Shown piece by piece: positions 25,026-36,517 of a stretch of DNA of 64,000 bases. The notes beneath the pieces were generated by a model. That model was not told where the DNA came from and ran no database searches. It saw only the letters and a list, made by a program, of their open reading frames with translations. The position numbers and the translations under genes are program-made. Origin of the DNA: Lachnospiraceae bacterium. GTDB taxonomy: Bacteria > Bacillota > Clostridia > Lachnospirales > Lachnospiraceae. The stretch is from NCBI GenBank assembly GCA_017465475.1, contig JAFTWC010000001.1:1-64000 (forward strand), written 5' to 3'. The stretch's first letter is position 1. Every line of letters begins with the position of its first letter.

Positions 25026-27029
25026 TTAAAACAGTACTTTCGCTGCCGCTTCCCTGTCGGCAAACGGTCCCGGAACCGGTTCTACCGGGCGATGCTCCCC
25101 AAGATAATCGGTATCAAAGGTAATTGCCGTTCCGTCCGGGTCTTCAAACCGCTGTTCCGGTTCGAACGCGCATCCTAAGATGTCGCTGGTTACCATACCG
25201 GCACGGAAATCACCAAGGAAATCGTATACATTGGTCTTTAACGTGTACTTTCCGTCCTTTTCCACCAGTTCCACATATACCTTGTTGGTTTCATCCAAAA
25301 AGAAGTCTTCTTCATGTTCCCAAGCCTTTGCGCCGTTAAAAAAGGCATTTCCCTTAGACCATACCGGGAGATGGTCAAAGTGCCACCGGGCAAGCTTGCC
25401 CATATTCGCCGGCTTATCAAACTCAAAATGAGACAGCCACTCCTCATAGGTCGGATATCCGTTCCAAATTTCCGTACCTACCACGTCGTTTTCTCTCATA
25501 CGGAAGCCCATGTCTTCCTTCTCTTCCTGTACCTCTACCGGCCAGTTCTGTACAAAAATATTGTTGTAGAAACGGTTATCACCGTGGAGAATGGTCATGA
25601 AACCTGCCACCTCGGTACGATGTCTGATATGGTACGGAGTGTAACGCGGCTGGTTCTTTCCGTTGACAATACTATCCACACCGCCACCTACGGACGTAAA
25701 CGCGCCGAGAATCAGGTTATGTACCAATGCCACCCCTTCCGTCGCCAAACGAACAGAAGCCTTGGACAGCATAATGTTGTTATCGATAAGGGTCGGCCCA
25801 TGGCTTACCTCTATGAAAATATCCTGGCACATCATGGCACCTTCTGCATGAGTTGCTCCCTCCGGCATATAGTTGTCGTGAAGCAGGTTCTGGGAAATAC
25901 GGGTACCCTGCGCCTGCCAGTCACACCAAATACCCATGGTGGAATGGTGGATGTGATTTCTGCGCATAACAACGTCAATTGCCGCATGAAGCTTAATACC
26001 GGAAATCTCCGCCCCGCCCAGCTGCTGCATGTTATTAATATGATGAATATGATTGTCCTCAATTAAGCTGAATACGCAGCCCATACGGCCCACAATACCG
26101 GTCTGCTCGCAGCGATAGATATGACATCTTCTAACGATATGACCTCCGATATTCTCCTTCAGCCACCCGTGATACTGCCCGCGGCATACCGCATCACGTT
26201 CCATCTGTGTAGGACTCTTAACATATTTATTGGTAAAGTAATGGTCATTCTCCTCGTCATAATACTTTCCGAGAGAAATTCCGCTACACTTACTGTTACT
26301 GATTTCGCAATCCTCAATAATCCATCCTTTGGACCAGTGCGGACCGATAAGACCGTCCTGATAAGCCGCCGGCGGCGCCCAGGTGGTTGCTGCCTTGTTC
26401 ATATTAAAACCGCTGACTGTAATATAGTTTACACCGGTTTTGGACGGCATAAAACAATTTCTGCGGACATTGATTTCTACCTTTTCCTCATTGGGATTCT
26501 TTCCCTGAAAGTTGGCATAAATCACCGTTTCCTCTCCATCCTGCTCCGTATACCATTTATACACGGACCATTCCGGTTCCCAGGACGGCTGATACACCTC
26601 TGCTTTCATACACTCTTCCAATGTAACGGTCTCGTACAACTGACGATCATTCAAATACACCGCACCGGTATGACGAACCACCGGAGCAAAATACCAGTCT
26701 CCCATTACATAGGTCGTATACGGATTGTACGCCCCAAACACTCCGTTATTGACACGATATACCCAAACATTTCCTTCGTAATGAGTCCATCCCGTGGCAA
26801 CCTCCGCACCGGTAATGACCGCACCTAACGGCACCTCACTGCGATAAGTAATCCGAGCATCCGGCAGGCCCGCATTTACCGGGTCTACATACTCTCTGTA
26901 AATACCCGGAGCCACTACCACCTCATCTCCCGGTTTTGCCACCTTGGCCGCCTCGTTGATACGCTTAAACGGCATTTCTTTACTTCCGTTTCCTTCACGG
27001 CCCGCATTCTGATTAACATAAAGAATCAT
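25026..27029 (-). CDS. Right-handed parallel beta-helix protein (GH141-like)
   Basis: A 667-residue protein beginning YVNQNAGREGNGSKEMPFKR, the DUF1565-type start of many polysaccharide-active beta-helix enzymes. Long runs of short strands rich in Asn and His (RRNHIHHSTMGIWCDWQA, DNRFYNNIFVQNW) form the helix core. Architecture and length resemble GH141 enzymes (alpha-fucosidase or xylanase). There is no signal peptide, so it acts inside the cell or exits another way. GAAGGGAAGGTATACAGT precedes the ATG. A fold-back sequence follows the stop by 7 bp. Confidence 0.75.
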   Translation of the reverse strand: MILYVNQNAGREGNGSKEMPFKRINEAAKVAKPGDEVVVAPGIYREYVDPVNAGLPDARITYRSEVPLGAVITGAEVATGWTHYEGNVWVYRVNNGVFGAYNPYTTYVMGDWYFAPVVRHTGAVYLNDRQLYETVTLEECMKAEVYQPSWEPEWSVYKWYTEQDGEETVIYANFQGKNPNEEKVEINVRRNCFMPSKTGVNYITVSGFNMNKAATTWAPPAAYQDGLIGPHWSKGWIIEDCEISNSKCSGISLGKYYDEENDHYFTNKYVKSPTQMERDAVCRGQYHGWLKENIGGHIVRRCHIYRCEQTGIVGRMGCVFSLIEDNHIHHINNMQQLGGAEISGIKLHAAIDVVMRRNHIHHSTMGIWCDWQAQGTRISQNLLHDNYMPEGATHAEGAMMCQDIFIEVSHGPTLIDNNIMLSKASVRLATEGVALVHNLILGAFTSVGGGVDSIVNGKNQPRYTPYHIRHRTEVAGFMTILHGDNRFYNNIFVQNWPVEVQEEKEDMGFRMRENDVVGTEIWNGYPTYEEWLSHFEFDKPANMGKLARWHFDHLPVWSKGNAFFNGAKAWEHEEDFFLDETNKVYVELVEKDGKYTLKTNVYDFLGDFRAGMVTSDILGCAFEPEQRFEDPDGTAITFDTDYLGEHRPVEPVPGPFADREAAAKVLF

Positions 27030-27206: not shown

Positions 27207-27235
27207 TTGTTTTTCTGTCCGAATCCTTCTATAAT
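27207..27235 (+). promoter_or_regulatory. Promoter of the peptide-modification locus
   Basis: -35 TTGTTT (27207-27212), 17-bp spacer, -10 TATAAT (27230-27235), about 37 bp upstream of the kinase-like gene's ribosome site region. Confidence 0.55.
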
Positions 27236-27278
27236 GAAACTAATACACAATAATCAAAGGAAAGGAGCACCAAAATCC

Positions 27279-28178
27279 ATGTACCAGTATCGCATCTACG
27301 GCATGTATCTGTTATCCGACATCGAGTTACCACAGCTTCCGGTTGCATCCCATAAGGACAAAGACAGTTTGCCGCAGATTACCGTTACAAAAGCTCCGTT
27401 TCCGGAACACTTAAAACAGGATGAAGTTTGCTATTCTCACGTTGCAAAAGATGTGAGTTATTTATCCAATACTTATTGCTACCTGCTGATTGAACAAGGA
27501 AACCGGATCACCTATGAAACCAAGGGAGAAGTTACCAACCTGCTTCTTGGTGCATATCTTTTAGGCTGGGGAATTTCCATGTTGTGCCATCAGCGCGGAT
27601 TGCTTGCCTTGCACGGTTCCTGTATTGCAGGTCCGACGGGTGCAGTTCTCATTTGCGGTGGTAGCGGCAGTGGCAAATCCACCGTTACCAAAGAACTTCT
27701 CTCCCGGGATTTTACCTTCCTGGCCGATGACCTTTCTGTTTTGGTCTTGGAAGAAAACGGTACTGTATCCGCCCTTCCTGCATTTCCTTACCAAAAACTG
27801 TGCAGAGATGTGGTTGAGCGGCTCGACCTCCCTCCGGAGGAAGTAATTTACGCGGACGAGAAGAAAGACAAATTCCTTGTTCCTTACAAAGGAGTTTTTT
27901 CCTCTGCCGCCGTTCCGGTCCGGGCCATTGTCATCTTGTCTCTTACCGATGAATCGTCTGTGTCCATCGAAGAACTCTCCGGCATTCCGAAGTTTGAAGC
28001 TTGCATGGGCACCTGGTTCTTGCGTCCTTTGCTTCGAGATGCCTTATACTCTCCGGAAAACGGAGTCGCCGGTCTTACCCTAACCTCCCGGCTTCCCATT
28101 TACCGGATTAAACGTCCTGTAAACGCTGACAGCAAAGCGGAAATCATACAAATAATCCTGTCTAAAGTCAGCAACTAA
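27279..28178 (+). CDS. HprK-like kinase of a RiPP-type locus
   Basis: A 299-residue protein of the HPr kinase/PEP-carboxykinase-like ATPase group. The P-loop is CGGSGSGKSTVT (about residues 126-137), preceded by the family motif LALHGSCIAG and followed by FTFLADDLSVLV (metal-binding Asp pair). The N-terminal 90 residues are a separate domain. Kinases of this group occur in paeninodin-type lasso clusters, where PadeK phosphorylates a Ser of the precursor. I start it at ATG 27279, after AAAGGAG with a long spacing; an ATG at 27234 falls inside the promoter. It is followed closely by the asparagine-synthetase-like gene. Confidence 0.85.
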   Translation: MYQYRIYGMYLLSDIELPQLPVASHKDKDSLPQITVTKAPFPEHLKQDEVCYSHVAKDVSYLSNTYCYLLIEQGNRITYETKGEVTNLLLGAYLLGWGISMLCHQRGLLALHGSCIAGPTGAVLICGGSGSGKSTVTKELLSRDFTFLADDLSVLVLEENGTVSALPAFPYQKLCRDVVERLDLPPEEVIYADEKKDKFLVPYKGVFSSAAVPVRAIVILSLTDESSVSIEELSGIPKFEACMGTWFLRPLLRDALYSPENGVAGLTLTSRLPIYRIKRPVNADSKAEIIQIILSKVSN

Positions 28179-28219
28179 CCACGTTATTTTTCACCGTTTC
28201 ACATACAAAAGGAGGATTT

Positions 28220-30193
28220 ATGTCAGCTATCTGGGGAATCGTTGCACTTTCTCCGAGTTACTCTTTCCCGGAGCATTGTGCACAACTGTTTGAATCAACC
28301 TATCAAAGTAACTGCAAAATTGATCGGTACGAAAACATTTCCGTACCAAGTGCCATCTTCGGTTGCGGTGTTCAATATATTACAGAGGAATCCCGACAGG
28401 AAACCCTCCCTTTTTCCAACACAGAGCGTGGGATTGTATTTACTGCCGACTGCGTCCTTGACAACCGTACAGAACTCATTGAATTGCTTTCTTCTCACGG
28501 TTTCACGAAAGCTGAACTTCTCTCTGCTCCGGACGGCACCTTGATGTACAATGCTTACCTCACCTTCGGCAACGACTGCGTAAAACAGTTCCGTGGTTTG
28601 TATTCCTTTGCCGTCTGGGAAGAAAAAAGTCGTACTCTGACTTTATTTTCCGACCACACGGCATCCCGAAGTCTCTATTACACAAAGCAGGAGAACTTTA
28701 TTGCATTCTCCACCCGAATGGAGCCTCTCCTGAAATTATTTCCGAAGATAACACCAAACAAGGATTACCATAAGGATTTTCTGCTGGCAAATCCGTCTGT
28801 TATTTACGTTACTCCGGGAGAAACTCCATACCGTGAGATTTCCCTGTTAACTCCGGCCACACAACTTCGCATAAATGAAAACGGCATCTCCTCATCTACC
28901 TATTGGGTACCCGGAACCTTCCGCCCCGCTCGATGTAAATCTCCGAAAGAATACAGCACCCGTTTTATGGAACTATACCGGGATTGTATCCGGGATGCCT
29001 TGCGTACCGTTGGAGAAGTAGGCATTGCCATGAGCAGCGGTTTGGACTCCTCCAGTGTCGGTGTCCTTGCCGCAAAGGAACTGGAAGCTGAAGAGAAATT
29101 ACTACATTCTTATACTTTTGTTCCTTATTTCCCAACCACGCCGTCTACCCGTAGTTCATACATTTACGACGAATCCGGCCTGGTACAAAAAATCGCTGCA
29201 AACCATCCGAATATGGACACGACATTTTTAAACAATGAAGGAAAAAATCCTTTTGCAGACATGAAACTGTGTTCCGACATTTTAGAGATGCCCTACAAAT
29301 CCGGTGTATTCCCGAACCATTACGAAATGTGTACCCGTGGTGCGCGAAAAGGCTGTAAAGTCTTCCTAAACGGAGCCTTTGGAAACCGTTCCGTATCCTT
29401 CGGTGACATATACCATATCGCCTACGACCGATACTGCAAGAAAAAAATGATTTCCTGCAAATTACTACTGAATCGTTTTGCAAAGCACGAAGGGATAAAT
29501 CACAAGGATATGTTCTCCCAAACAATACAAAGTTTTCGTTCGTTTCGTAAACACATGCATGACCCCTTTGAACATTATGTTCCGGAGAATTACTTCCTTT
29601 CTCCTACCATATTGCAGGACTACAACCTAAGAGAACGTTTTTCCGCAAATCCCTACGCCTTATTTTCCGGAGGATATATCAACCACAAAACCTTTTTACA
29701 ACAGTTGAACCACAACTGGCTTTTCATGTATTTAGGCGTATTTGAAACGCAGTTCGGCCTGCGCACCGGTATGCTTCTAAGAGACCCCACCAAAGATGTA
29801 CGCCTCTTAGAATTTTGCCATCATCTTCCGTTTCACATGTTTGCATACCGCGGAACACCTCGCCGGCTGATACGCAGCAACTTTTCCTCTCTGCTCCCTC
29901 CTTCTGTTTTGGAGTGTTGGAGCCGGCACGGACTTTTAAACGCTGACCGTATGCTTCGGATTAAAAGAGACTGGGATACAATAAAGCCCATGCTGATACA
30001 ACATCTTTCCTCCGGGATTTTAGATGACTATATCAACAAAGAGGGGGTCCTTTCGTTTATAGAATCTTTTGGTACCTCGGAACAAGAAAATTCCTATCAG
30101 ATGAACTCCCTTTGTGCCCTGGAAGGGTTGCTATGTTTCTGTCTACAAAAGGAAGTTCCTCCGATTGTACCTACTGATTCCAAATATTTTTGA
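28220..30193 (+). CDS. Asparagine-synthetase-like amide-forming enzyme (lasso cyclase-like)
   Basis: A 657-residue AsnB homologue. The N-terminal glutaminase-like domain starts MSAIWGIVALS: the Cys2 nucleophile essential for glutamine hydrolysis in AsnB is absent. The C-terminal synthetase domain keeps the PP-loop SSGLDSSS (about residues 271-278) for ATP adenylation of a carboxylate. Loss of Cys2 with an intact PP-loop is typical of lasso-peptide cyclases, which join a peptide N-terminus to an Asp or Glu side chain. AAAGGAGGATTT precedes the ATG. It is the second gene after the HprK-like kinase (41 bp gap). Confidence 0.85.
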   Translation: MSAIWGIVALSPSYSFPEHCAQLFESTYQSNCKIDRYENISVPSAIFGCGVQYITEESRQETLPFSNTERGIVFTADCVLDNRTELIELLSSHGFTKAELLSAPDGTLMYNAYLTFGNDCVKQFRGLYSFAVWEEKSRTLTLFSDHTASRSLYYTKQENFIAFSTRMEPLLKLFPKITPNKDYHKDFLLANPSVIYVTPGETPYREISLLTPATQLRINENGISSSTYWVPGTFRPARCKSPKEYSTRFMELYRDCIRDALRTVGEVGIAMSSGLDSSSVGVLAAKELEAEEKLLHSYTFVPYFPTTPSTRSSYIYDESGLVQKIAANHPNMDTTFLNNEGKNPFADMKLCSDILEMPYKSGVFPNHYEMCTRGARKGCKVFLNGAFGNRSVSFGDIYHIAYDRYCKKKMISCKLLLNRFAKHEGINHKDMFSQTIQSFRSFRKHMHDPFEHYVPENYFLSPTILQDYNLRERFSANPYALFSGGYINHKTFLQQLNHNWLFMYLGVFETQFGLRTGMLLRDPTKDVRLLEFCHHLPFHMFAYRGTPRRLIRSNFSSLLPPSVLECWSRHGLLNADRMLRIKRDWDTIKPMLIQHLSSGILDDYINKEGVLSFIESFGTSEQENSYQMNSLCALEGLLCFCLQKEVPPIVPTDSKYF

Positions 30194-30200
30194 TTTTTTC

Positions 30201-30229
30201 TTGCATACTGTTAAAATTTATGTTATAAT
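30201..30229 (+). promoter_or_regulatory. Strong promoter of the candidate precursor peptide
   Basis: -35 TTGCAT (30201-30206), 17-bp spacer, -10 TATAAT (30224-30229), starting 8 bp after the upstream stop codon. It gives the small peptide gene its own transcript. Confidence 0.7.
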
Positions 30230-30272
30230 TTTGAAACACATATATCGTTTACTTATGAAAGGGGCCATTGCT

Positions 30273-30524
30273 ATGAGGAAATGGGTTTCACCGGCAATCG
30301 AAGAATTACAATTAAAATATACAGCTAGTATCATTCCTTGGATTGAGGACGAGCAAAGTAATGAAGAAGAACTTCTTCCCATCGCAACTCCGACTCCTGC
30401 TGTTACCGGAACTGTAGATCAAGATTTAGGTACATGTTCGAATCCATTTTGGTACGGCAACGGCATGACCCACCAGGAGGCAGTAAAGAATAACCCTTTC
30501 TGGGGCGGTGCGTGGGGCAAATAA
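30273..30524 (+). CDS. Candidate RiPP precursor peptide (83 aa)
   Basis: An 83-residue peptide with AAAGGGGCCATTGCT before the ATG. The N-terminus MRKWVSPAIEELQLKYTA resembles lasso/paeninodin leaders: W4-xx-P7-x-I9 parallels the YxxPxL recognition motif. The middle is acidic (EDEQSNEEELLPIA). The C-terminal third is Gly/Asn/aromatic-rich and contains NPFW twice (residues 57-60 and 74-77), with one Cys (55). One possible lasso core is Gly62-Lys83 (ring Gly62-Glu69, position 8), but residue -2 is Trp, not the usual Thr. The cleavage site is not determined. No PqqD-like or protease gene is adjacent. Confidence 0.75.
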   Translation: MRKWVSPAIEELQLKYTASIIPWIEDEQSNEEELLPIATPTPAVTGTVDQDLGTCSNPFWYGNGMTHQEAVKNNPFWGGAWGK

Positions 30525-30542
30525 CTTCATATATGATTCTGT

Positions 30543-30590
30543 ACTCCTATCGACTTGTGTCCTCACACAGCCCGGTAGGAGTTTTTATTT
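30543..30590 (+). terminator. Terminator of the candidate precursor gene
   Basis: ACTCCTATCG pairs with CGGTAGGAGT (10 pairs, one wobble) with an inner GTGT/ACAC stem, followed by TTTTTATTTT. It closes the 30224-30590 transcript. Confidence 0.9.
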
Positions 30591-32308: not shown

Positions 32309-34675
32309 TTAAATCATTTTCACTGTATACAAGAACTGGCATACTGCCGCCGATTCATTTCCGTCGATTCCGCTAAAGGTAAAGGTTAGCATCTTCCGTT
32401 CCTTGCAATCATAGAAACGCTTTATTACGGATTGCATGGCTTCTTCCGGCACCGGAAGTAACACATCAAAGTACTCCCCCTCACCGGAGCCTTCCAATAC
32501 ACCTTCGTAAACCGTCACCTCTCCGGCTCTAATCCGAATCCCCTTACCGGTATCTGCATTCTTAAACATAACAAGCAAGCCCGTTCCGTCCTGATTCACT
32601 TCCATGGTATAGGAGAAACTTCCGCCTGCTTTCGCGTAACGGGAGGTTCCGCCTGCCGTGGTTCCCACAGAACCAGTCCCCTGCTCCGTCATGTTGTGCA
32701 GTGCATCGTTCTCATATTGGCCATATCCCGGCTGTACCGTATCCATACGCTCCAGCTCTGCTTTGTCCACACCGGCAACATACGAATCTCTGTCACAGAA
32801 TGTAAAATAAATACCGTAACGTTCTTTATACTGGGAATAGTGCGGCACATAGGTAAGTGTTGCATCAGTCCCCTGCAGTGCAAAGGTAAGCTCCTCCCCC
32901 TGCCGTACCAGATTCGCCTCAATCTGTGCCATATACTCTGCCACAGTGCCCTCTTTTACCATGATTCTTTCACTCTTTGACGGCACGTAACGTTCCTCAA
33001 TGACACGATTGCTTGGGATTGTAACATTCACACCTGTAGTCGTATCTATCATATCCTTCGTTCCCAAAAGGGCGCTCAACACCACCGGACCATACTTAAA
33101 TCCATAGGTATTGGCTCCATCCGGAAGAGAATATGCCACCACTTTCATCGGAAGGGTAACCGTAATCTGCGTTTCAGCCGCAAACGGACCTTCTACCAAA
33201 GCATATCCGTTTTCAACCGCATATGTATAAGGTTCCCCGTTCACCGCTATTTTTGCCTCTCCCGCCAACCAATACGGCAGACGGAACATAAGACTTCCGG
33301 CAAATGCCTTATGAATGAAAAATGTAACAGTATCCTTTTTCGGAATCTCTGCTTCCTGTGTAATCTCTACACCTTGGAATTCCACCGAAGAGGAAATGTA
33401 TTGATTTACGATTACTGTATTCTCTTTCTCAAAATAAAAGCTTTCCTGCAATTTTGCGAAGTTCTCCATACCGGTTCCGGTACAGCACCAGAACTTATTG
33501 AAACGTTCACCATATACTTTATAATATCCGCTCGCCATCGGCTGGAAGTAGGTAGTCATACCGGTTTCCGGATTTTGAGAGGATAAAATAGAGTTGATAT
33601 ATGTATTTTCATACCAATCCGCATACTTCACCTCTCCGGTAATCTCAAACAACTTCTTTGTCATCTTCTGCATGTTATACACATTACAGGTTTCACAGTT
33701 ACAATTGGTCCGCTCCTTATCTAAAATCCGGTCTTCTCCGAAATGCTCCCACTCACTGTTTCCGCCGGTGATATAGGTATGATGCTCCGTTACCAAATTC
33801 CAGAAATGTGTCACGTACTCCAAATACTTTGCATCTTTCGTTACAATGTAGCGATTTAACGCCCCCAGGAATTTTGGAATCGTAGTATTGGCATGATGAT
33901 TGTTCAGAATGTTGTCTCCCGCCTTCGCCTTTAGCACACGTTCAAAAAGTTCCACCTGATCAAAGGCATGCGCTGCTTCTAAATGTTCTTTCTTTCCGGT
34001 AATCAAATACACATCATACAAGCAATCATTCATACCGCCGTATTCAATTCCAAGTACAACCCGGTGAATGTCTTCACTCCAACTGCCGGTTCTTCCGTAC
34101 ACCCAATCTGCCAGTCGGGACATGACATCCTTCGTGGTTGCCTTAATCTCCTCAGCAAGTGCACCGTCCACGTCCATATTTGCCATAGACACAAGTCCTT
34201 CAAACAACTTGTGCATGGTATACCACGGTACCCAAGCCTGTGTGATAATGTTTGTTTTATTTTCTTCTACATAATCAAACTGAAGTTCCACATTGGATTT
34301 GTCCAAAATAATTGCGCCAAACAAGAATCCGGTCTTACCTGCCTCCTGACACTCCTTCAAACCGTCAATCAAACGCTTTAATATTTGCAACAGTTCCTGT
34401 CTGTCATTTTCATCACAGTTTACCGACTCGCAGCTCCGCACACAAGCCGTCATATAGTGTCCTAAACTATGACCGCCGATGAGCATGCTTTCCCAACCCT
34501 CGTATCTGGTTGCCCCCCGCATATCCACACCTGCCGTTTCTCTGAATCCGGCAAGCAACTTATCCGTATCGAATGCGGTCAGATACATTACTTCTTTTTC
34601 AAATGCATTCACCAAATAGGCATCTTTCATTGCCACCTTACGTAACGAAAATGCTTTGTTTCCTTTTAACTCCAT
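32309..34675 (-). CDS. GH127 beta-L-arabinofuranosidase
   Basis: A 788-residue member of GH127 (DUF1680), which release L-arabinofuranose from plant glycans such as arabinan or extensin-type oligosaccharides. The zinc-thiolate site is visible: Glu328 and Cys330 in NCNCETCNVYN, and Cys397-Cys398 in WCCTGTGMEN. The first Cys of that pair is equivalent to the nucleophile of HypBA1. Glu310 in SEWEHFGED is the likely acid/base. A catalytic (alpha/alpha)6 barrel is followed by beta domains. There is no signal peptide, so it is intracellular. GAAAGGAAGAGAAC precedes the ATG. Confidence 0.93.
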   Translation of the reverse strand: MELKGNKAFSLRKVAMKDAYLVNAFEKEVMYLTAFDTDKLLAGFRETAGVDMRGATRYEGWESMLIGGHSLGHYMTACVRSCESVNCDENDRQELLQILKRLIDGLKECQEAGKTGFLFGAIILDKSNVELQFDYVEENKTNIITQAWVPWYTMHKLFEGLVSMANMDVDGALAEEIKATTKDVMSRLADWVYGRTGSWSEDIHRVVLGIEYGGMNDCLYDVYLITGKKEHLEAAHAFDQVELFERVLKAKAGDNILNNHHANTTIPKFLGALNRYIVTKDAKYLEYVTHFWNLVTEHHTYITGGNSEWEHFGEDRILDKERTNCNCETCNVYNMQKMTKKLFEITGEVKYADWYENTYINSILSSQNPETGMTTYFQPMASGYYKVYGERFNKFWCCTGTGMENFAKLQESFYFEKENTVIVNQYISSSVEFQGVEITQEAEIPKKDTVTFFIHKAFAGSLMFRLPYWLAGEAKIAVNGEPYTYAVENGYALVEGPFAAETQITVTLPMKVVAYSLPDGANTYGFKYGPVVLSALLGTKDMIDTTTGVNVTIPSNRVIEERYVPSKSERIMVKEGTVAEYMAQIEANLVRQGEELTFALQGTDATLTYVPHYSQYKERYGIYFTFCDRDSYVAGVDKAELERMDTVQPGYGQYENDALHNMTEQGTGSVGTTAGGTSRYAKAGGSFSYTMEVNQDGTGLLVMFKNADTGKGIRIRAGEVTVYEGVLEGSGEGEYFDVLLPVPEEAMQSVIKRFYDCKERKMLTFTFSGIDGNESAAVCQFLYTVKMI

Positions 34676-35397: not shown

Positions 35398-36517
35398 TTA
35401 ATCTTTTGTTTTCCCGGTTGCATTCCACCTTAAATACGCATTCATAAACGGATCCAGATTACCATCCAACACCGTCTGGGCATTGCCCACTTCTTCGTTG
35501 GTCCGATGATCTTTTACCATTGTATACGGTTGTAATACATAAGAACGAATCTGATTACCAAAGTTAATATCTCTGACTTCCCCACGGATACCGGATTCTT
35601 TCTCCGCGTTCTGTTGTTCCTGTAACAAGTACAGCTTTGCCTTTAACATCTGCATTGCTTTATCCTTATTTTGGAACTGGGAACGTTCATTCTGACACTG
35701 CACCACAATTCCCGTCGGCAAGTGGGTAATACGAATTGCGGAGGATGTCTTATTGACATGCTGTCCGCCGGCACCACTGGAACGATAAGTATCGATTCGT
35801 AAATCCTTCTCGTCGATTTCCACTTCCGGCGCTTCCTTCAAATCCGGCATAATATCACAGGATACAAAAGACGTCTGACGCTTTCCTGCCGCATTAAACG
35901 GAGAAATACGAACCAAGCGATGTACGCCGTGTTCGGATTTTAAATACCCGTAGGCATTCTCTCCGTGAATTTCCAACGTAACGGACTTATAGCCGGCTTC
36001 ATCTCCGTCCAAAAAATCAATTATTTCCGTCGTAAAACCACGCTTATCCGCCCAACGCTGGTACATCCGGCAAAGCATGGAGGCCCAGTCACAGCTTTCC
36101 GTACCGCCGGCACCTGCATGAAGTGTCAAAATGGCATCTTCCTTATCGTACTCATCACACAGCAACGTTGCCAAGTGCATCCGTTCATAATGGGCTTTAA
36201 ATAATTCCATAGCCTCCTGGGCTTCCGGCACCAAAGAAGCATCCCCGGACTCATATCCCATTTCCAGATACGTCTGTACATCTTCATACTCTGTCTTTAA
36301 ATTATCATAATCCGCCACCGCATCTTTGAGATTTTTCAGTTCTTTCATATAGCCCTGGGATTTATCCGCATCATCCCAAAAACCCGGTTCCTGCATAATT
36401 GCTTCTATTTCCTGAATCTTCTCACGCTTGCCGGAGAGGTCAAAGTGAATCCCCCATTTCAAGCAACGGTTTTTCAAAGCCGGTGAGTTCGAACTTAATC
36501 GCATCCAACTCTACCAT
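35398..36517 (-). CDS. prfB: Peptide chain release factor 2, with programmed +1 frameshift
   Basis: RF2 ends translation at UAA and UGA. The true start is ATG at 36517 (MVELDAIKFELTGFEKPLLE), with GAAGGTGAGCAG upstream. After 25 codons the frame hits CTT-TGA-C (36445-36439), the classic RF2 slip site, preceded by the SD-like GGGGG. A +1 shift continues as DLSGKREKIQEIEAIM, giving 372 residues. The anticodon-mimic SPF (RISPFNAAGKR) and catalytic GGQ (SSGAGGQHVNKT) are present. Its position after secA is the usual Firmicutes arrangement. A continuous reading from a spurious start would miss the first 25 residues. Confidence 0.97.

Follow-up and report, generated by a model that had tools for sequence, protein, structure and literature searches.

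Based on the gene content of one genome and its relatives, we propose that a three-gene peptide locus of a gut Lachnospiraceae bacterium is probably a spoke of a split, paeninodin-like lasso peptide pathway, to which the leader-binding protein (B1), the leader peptidase (B2) and the ABC exporter are supplied in trans from another contig, C23. The locus lies within 64,000 nucleotides (nt) of contig JAFTWC010000001.1 (GenBank assembly GCA_017465475.1, positions 1 to 64,000, forward strand), here called the window, and consists of an HprK-like kinase (K), an AsnB-like protein of the macrolactam cyclase type (C) and a precursor peptide (A). The precursor is a member of a new family with a conserved aromatic tail, unnamed in Pfam and NCBIfam. 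The trio is co-oriented, intact and consecutive, with intergenic gaps of 41 and 79 nt. A preliminary description of the sequence had recognised these three genes and let the locus begin at 27207; the genes stand, and that position is an in-frame TTG upstream of the ATG at 27279 with which K starts. The features of the locus, with lengths in amino acids (aa), are:

27279..28178, plus strand: K, HprK-like kinase, 299 aa (HprK-related models below their cut-offs, motif alignment, weak structure match)
28220..30193, plus strand: C, AsnB-like macrolactam-cyclase-type protein, 657 aa (profile matches, cyclase tree)
30273..30524, plus strand: A, precursor peptide, 83 aa (homologues, conservation, selection)
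30273..30326, plus strand: predicted leader of A, residues 1-18, MRKWVSPAIEELQLKYTA (WxxP motif; Thr two residues before the expected cut)
30327..30416, plus strand: variable middle of A, residues 19-48, which includes a Pro/Thr-rich stretch (E25, D26 and E27 as possible ring acceptors)
30417..30521, plus strand: conserved aromatic tail of A, residues 49-83, DQDLGTCSNPFWYGNG...NNPFWGGAWGK (residues invariant in 6/6 precursors; purifying selection)

B proteins encoded apart from the trio

As the preliminary description had remarked, no B1, B2 or ABC exporter lies beside the trio, and neither B1 nor B2 was found on the window's contig. Its suggestion that the B proteins might be encoded elsewhere is borne out by the rest of the genome (G000, a draft 88.8% complete). 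Two PqqD matches are present, a discrete one on C23 and one inside a radical-SAM-like protein on C9, so that the sole lasso-type PqqD (B1) is that of C23. The two Transglut_core3 (B2) matches lie on C23, above the cut-off, and on C11, below it. At about 6.6-13.6 kb C23 carries a full set in the order ABC-B1-C-K-A-B2-nucleotidyltransferase, with A on the opposite strand, and at about 34.6-37.9 kb a third kinase/cyclase/precursor set without B proteins. C32 holds one more, weaker cyclase match (E 6e-11), which we take to be an ordinary asparagine synthetase. We favor a shared hub because three K/C/A sets, the two others both on C23, have to be reconciled with one lasso-type B1 and one B2.

A similar division is seen in relatives, whose genomes are drafts in many contigs, and lends the shared hub further weight. 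In the congeners G398 and G400 a hub with the order nucleotidyltransferase-B2-(one gene)-B1-ABC is free of cyclase matches for about 5-7 kb in both directions, and each genome carries three dispersed cyclases with precursors; the nearest cyclase/precursor pair in G398 is about 18 kb from the hub on the same contig, and all three in G400 are on other contigs. Near these hubs the leader pattern picked out only one 29-aa open reading frame (ORF; L112), which we discounted. The A2-K2-C2 kinase/cyclase/precursor set, which in G000 lies within the hub, is found in G398 and G400 on contigs other than that of the hub. G380 is split likewise, with a kinase/cyclase/precursor set on its contig C13 and B1, B2 and another cyclase on its C11.

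The co-occurrence of the genes points in the same direction. Among 397 genomes of the family a cyclase is found in 11 (E 1e-60) and B2 in 12 (E 1e-15, B2 profile), and the two coincide in 10 (Fisher p 3e-17, a value that ignores kinship and includes clusters with a local B2); the exceptions are G285, with the cyclase only, and G045 and G346, with B2 only. Of the 10 genomes of the genus, 6 have a PqqD match and 5 have B2; both B proteins accompany the intact trio in all three genomes that have it (G000, G398 and G400) and occur in one of the six without trio or remnant (G403; Fisher p 0.048). G115, which has a remnant of the window locus plus both B proteins, was set aside in this comparison.

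How might the peptide be made from such dispersed parts? Everything that follows on catalysis, linkage, site of phosphorylation and export is inferred. The window's own K and C would act on the window's own A, and the single C23 set of B2, B1 and ABC protein would also serve the genome's two other cyclase/precursor sets. B1 would first bind the WxxP leader, K would then phosphorylate a Ser or Thr of the precursor, and B2 would cut after residue 18. C would activate an acidic side chain (E25, D26 or E27) with ATP and join it to the new N-terminus, and the long product, still bearing its aromatic tail, would be exported by the ABC protein of the hub. The exporter is probably shared.

A precursor family with a conserved tail

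Gene content, conservation, co-occurrence and the cyclase clade are direct observations. When the cyclase alignment was used in one scan of the genome contigs, 13 loci emerged: five with tail-bearing precursors (L069 in G400, L070 in G460, L071 in G461, L072 in G285 and L081 in G398), the G115 remnant (L074) and seven other lasso-type loci. With the window there are six tail-bearing precursors, at loci partly found through C. The family tail pattern is D...C.N[PQ][FY]W.GN...W...WG, and M1, W4, P7, E10, T17, D51, C55, N57, W60, G62, N63, W77, W81 and G82 are invariant in 6/6. The tail matched no Pfam or NCBIfam model in the four of six precursors scanned. The window's A as a whole matched none either, nor did two of the three relatives scanned; that of G285 weakly matches the paeninodin model on its leader (E 0.06) and a Pfam model (E 0.22). 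The six loci occupy four different surroundings, one of them common to the window, G398 and G400. C stands beside A in all six and K beside C in five. The preliminary description had named a B1/B2-containing cluster with the same precursor as a refutation; in the sequence examined no B1 or B2 match lies beside any of the six (the contigs of L070 and L071 are 13 and 22 kb long). Both B proteins are nevertheless present elsewhere in the genome, by Pfam model, for five of the six loci, including those of G460 and G461; G285 is the exception.

The cyclase tree holds 37 cyclases of at least 560 aa, labeled from precursors within 2.2 kb and rooted at the midpoint; L071 was omitted for its split frame and L060 dropped as a shorter reading of L056. 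The five cyclases with tail-bearing precursors form one clade (100/99, present in 100% of 200 bootstrap trees), which joins the cyclases of precursors with DGG[YR].GDG (one with DGFFVG) at 90/100, a node that is not starred. Among its sister group are cyclases whose own loci contain B1 and B2 (L073 and L110). The second of these, on contig C64 of G461 (L110:6736-14802), has two different precursors between two cyclases, beside B2, B1, ABC and a kinase, and we read it as a multi-cassette hub.

All HprK matches of K are sub-threshold (Hpr_kinase_C, E 9e-6, 25.8 bits, cut-off 33.3); the motifs GxSxxGKST and ADD are invariant across eight aligned rows (the window and seven relatives), and K weakly matches the HPr kinase structures 2qmh and 1jb1 (E 0.07). 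The best NCBIfam match of C is the lasso cyclase model NF033535 (E 4.8e-56, 190.6 bits, curated cut-off 525). C carries the ATP motif SSGLDSS, and its second residue is Ser, the position at which glutaminase-active relatives have Cys. Nonsynonymous (pN) and synonymous (pS) divergence of C is 0.19 and 0.75 against both congeners, G398 and G400. K and C are 66-69% identical to their counterparts there, as compared with 95-96% for the left-hand neighbor and 87-88% for the MATE gene that follows A; this stronger divergence is what would be expected of a specialised peptide system. GC content runs at 0.40-0.48 along the trio without a sharp break, and a foreign base composition was rejected on that ground. 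Carriage by a plasmid is unsupported, the best plasmid match having only 29.6% identity, as is carriage by a phage, two peptide patterns having found no relative in viral contigs.

A is a real gene, because it has homologues of 58% identity in G398 and G400, its pN (0.28-0.29) is below its pS (0.68-0.78), and its leader scores highest of 9,358 candidate 14-mers in the window with a profile from 32 other precursors, a ranking that is partly circular, those 32 having been collected with the leader pattern. Against the two syntenic congeners pN is 0.18 in the leader (pS 0.30, 18 codons only), 0.41-0.45 in the middle and 0.21-0.22 in the tail (pS 0.84-0.94). Purifying selection on A and the invariance of the leader W, P and T in 6/6 are further grounds on which we prefer the shared hub. 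Two likenesses of the tail were discarded. YGNG is a motif of pediocin-type bacteriocins, and the window tail contains it; relatives have AGNG, QGNG or QGNP at this place. By eye, no Gly followed 7-9 residues on by an acid is common to all six, and the tail was rejected as a conventional lasso core.

Could the locus instead be a cassette in decay that no longer functions in this genome? A precedent exists in the congener G115, whose locus on its contig C16 (L041:5154-6747, minus strand) keeps an intact kinase and a cyclase cut to 216 aa; the 16 kb examined there contain neither a precursor nor a MATE match. The preliminary description would have counted a kinase and AsnB-like gene without a peptide gene against its reading, and this is one locus with the kinase and no peptide; we regard it as a remnant because its cyclase is truncated. 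Directly next to it is a gene that, by eye, is homologous to the one at 32309-34675 in the window. In the window itself, none of the three genes is disrupted and all show purifying selection between species, and decay seems very unlikely.

Known lasso systems and alternative readings

How does this locus relate to known peptide systems? With paeninodin-like lasso peptides the locus shares a WxxP leader, a penultimate leader Thr, an AsnB-like protein of the cyclase type, an HprK-like kinase and the presence of B1, B2 and ABC in the genome. WxxP leaders are typical of paeninodin-like Bacillota precursors and are preferred by their RiPP recognition element (RRE) (PMC13381572), a preference that the six leaders, invariant for W4, P7 and T17 ahead of the predicted cut, would fit. 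The locus differs in that B1, B2 and ABC are on C23 and not in the locus, in the 83-aa precursor with its aromatic tail and no C-terminal Ser, in a C that falls below the lasso cyclase cut-off, and in the lack of a match to the paeninodin precursor model. Lasso precursors of rumen Lachnospiraceae, where complete lasso clusters were reported in 33 of 425 genomes (PMC7533575), have the same leader type (for example MKWNAPVMEELNINATAN) and long predicted cores of 25-42 aa; their cores, in contrast, are predicted to start with Gly, and no aromatic tail appears among the rows examined.

The encoding of maturation enzymes in trans also has precedents. Unclustered lanthipeptide proteases (PMC8960859) are likewise encoded away from the precursor, in a different peptide class, and the citrulassin deiminase (PMC8498205) lies outside its cluster, as a tailoring enzyme only. 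In the window system the shared parts would be the RRE, the leader peptidase and probably the exporter. Titles and abstracts of the open-access papers searched showed no recognisable report of lasso B proteins lying away from A and C, which is not proof that none exists.

The linear polyphosphorylated peptides (LPP; PMC13381572) offer a further comparison. Their loci resemble the window locus in the HprK-like kinase, [Y/W]xxP leader, discrete RRE and long core (45 aa in LPP). They differ in lacking a cyclase of their own, in relying on a leader peptidase akin to signal peptidases (SipW-like) and in having YxxP leaders. A linear, phosphorylated LPP-like peptide, with the kinase as the main modifying enzyme and the cyclase as a remnant, would accord with the HprK-like kinase in five of six loci and, LppK modifying an internal Ser (PMC13381572), with the absence of a C-terminal Ser here. 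We nevertheless find this highly improbable: C is conserved against both congeners and stands beside A in 6/6 (among loci partly found through it), the leader has W in 6/6 and not the Y typical of LPP leaders, and one locus keeps C and lacks the kinase.

A number of observations weigh against a split lasso pathway that depends on B1 and B2. The chief of these is G285 (93% complete), which has an intact K-C-A trio and no detectable B2. Its one PqqD sits on contig C192 (L107:10016-12173) as a discrete protein together with a YxxP precursor-like ORF and a protein of 519 aa that has a P-loop close to its N-terminus, apparently another peptide locus; as a lasso B1 it was rejected, since it does not match the C23 B1 at E 0.01 and adjoins that other precursor-like ORF. 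A weaker case is the incomplete congener G401 (72% complete), where a related cyclase goes with a different type of precursor and both B1 and B2 are missing; unless this lack is an assembly gap, it counts against B dependence. The window leader, at 5.3 bits, is the lowest of those scored, against 19-26 for the other tail-bearing leaders and at least 30 for the 32 other precursors, which are the training set. Core positions 7-10 are devoid of acidic residues in two of the six tail-bearing precursors (L070 and L071). A C-terminal Ser, which paeninodin kinases modify (PMC9266682, PMC8498205), is found in 0/6 as against 14/32 of the others, and the cassette of G461 (L071) is without a kinase in the sequence examined beside it.

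With the core counted from two residues after the leader Thr, all 32 other precursors, which are mutually related and were collected with a leader pattern blind to the core, have Asp or Glu at core positions 7-10, and 31 of 32 at position 9 or 10 (chance about 0.53 and 0.32). In the tail-bearing precursors an acid at positions 7-10 occurs in 4/6, indistinguishable from chance: at 7, 8 and 9 in the window, at 7, 10 and 11 in G285, and at 8 and 9 in G398 and G400 by script count, or 9 and 10 counted from the conserved T17. A rival reading is a separate peptide class descended from lasso ancestors, in which the tail would be the working part, the ring acceptor dispensable and B2 perhaps unneeded. 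The invariance of the tail residues in 6/6 while the acceptor is missing in 2/6, the cyclase clade of its own and the missing B2 of G285 speak for it. We judge it unlikely: the leader W, P and T, which a pathway without B1 and B2 would not need, are kept in 6/6, B1 and B2 are present in 5/6 genomes, and an acid at position 9-10 is kept in 4/6. As part of this same unlikely reading, C would form another bond or only a minor ring. The preliminary description had offered a new class as one of two alternatives; the absence of a database model for the precursor and of a ring acceptor in two precursors is compatible with such a class, and the alternative that the evidence supports is B proteins elsewhere. 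More speculatively, and in our estimate rather unlikely, the family might be a post-lasso class, made by a lineage of lasso cyclases, in which the tail is functional and the ring no longer needed, and movable, mostly kinase-bearing cassettes borrow RRE, peptidase and exporter from a hub.

Flanking genes and wider meaning

Between A and the MATE gene lies a gap of 178 nt, and two putative signals accompany A:

30201..30229, plus strand: possible promoter of A, TTGCAT, 17 nt, TATAAT (by eye; first hexamer a 3/6 match, not listed by the scanner)
30543..30582, plus strand: terminator-like hairpin with a T run behind it, separating A from the MATE gene (-20.3 kcal/mol, z -4.5)

A consensus promoter scan gave 10 promoter-like sites for this region against 9.9 expected, which is no excess. 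None of 200 shuffles was as stable as the hairpin, which the consensus terminator scan (loops of at most 8 nt) does not list. The preliminary description had called the MATE gene an exporter. We find no support for a dedicated exporter and place the gene probably outside the peptide locus, because the terminator-like hairpin precedes it, setting it apart as a separate unit, and because tblastn did not find it beside A in 3/3 non-syntenic relatives.

The divergent left neighbor (25026-27029, minus strand), previously called a beta-helix gene, is by profile match a GH120-type protein, and G398 and G400 retain the order GH120-K-C-A-MATE. The large protein at 32309-34675 (minus strand) presumably resembles GH127, and both flanks look like ordinary carbohydrate genes. 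Further on, a prfB-like gene (35398-36517, minus strand) contains, behind a G-rich stretch, the frameshift site CTT TGA C, which we take to be the known RF2 autoregulation. Outside the window, the radical-SAM-like PqqD protein on C9 adjoins a 102-aa ORF (L014:5293-5601, minus strand) with two near-identical six-cysteine copies, which we read as a tandem precursor and, presumably, as SCIFF-like.

What are the consequences of a split pathway? Searches for lasso clusters, and definitions of them, commonly rely on A, B and C (and D) being adjacent. If one set of B1, B2 and ABC serves dispersed cassettes, cluster-based mining would miss or truncate such loci, and leader-mediated sharing between cassettes would be a design feature and not a conflict. 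In this precursor family the ring acceptor, usually held to be essential, varies while the tail is conserved, a combination that is directly testable.

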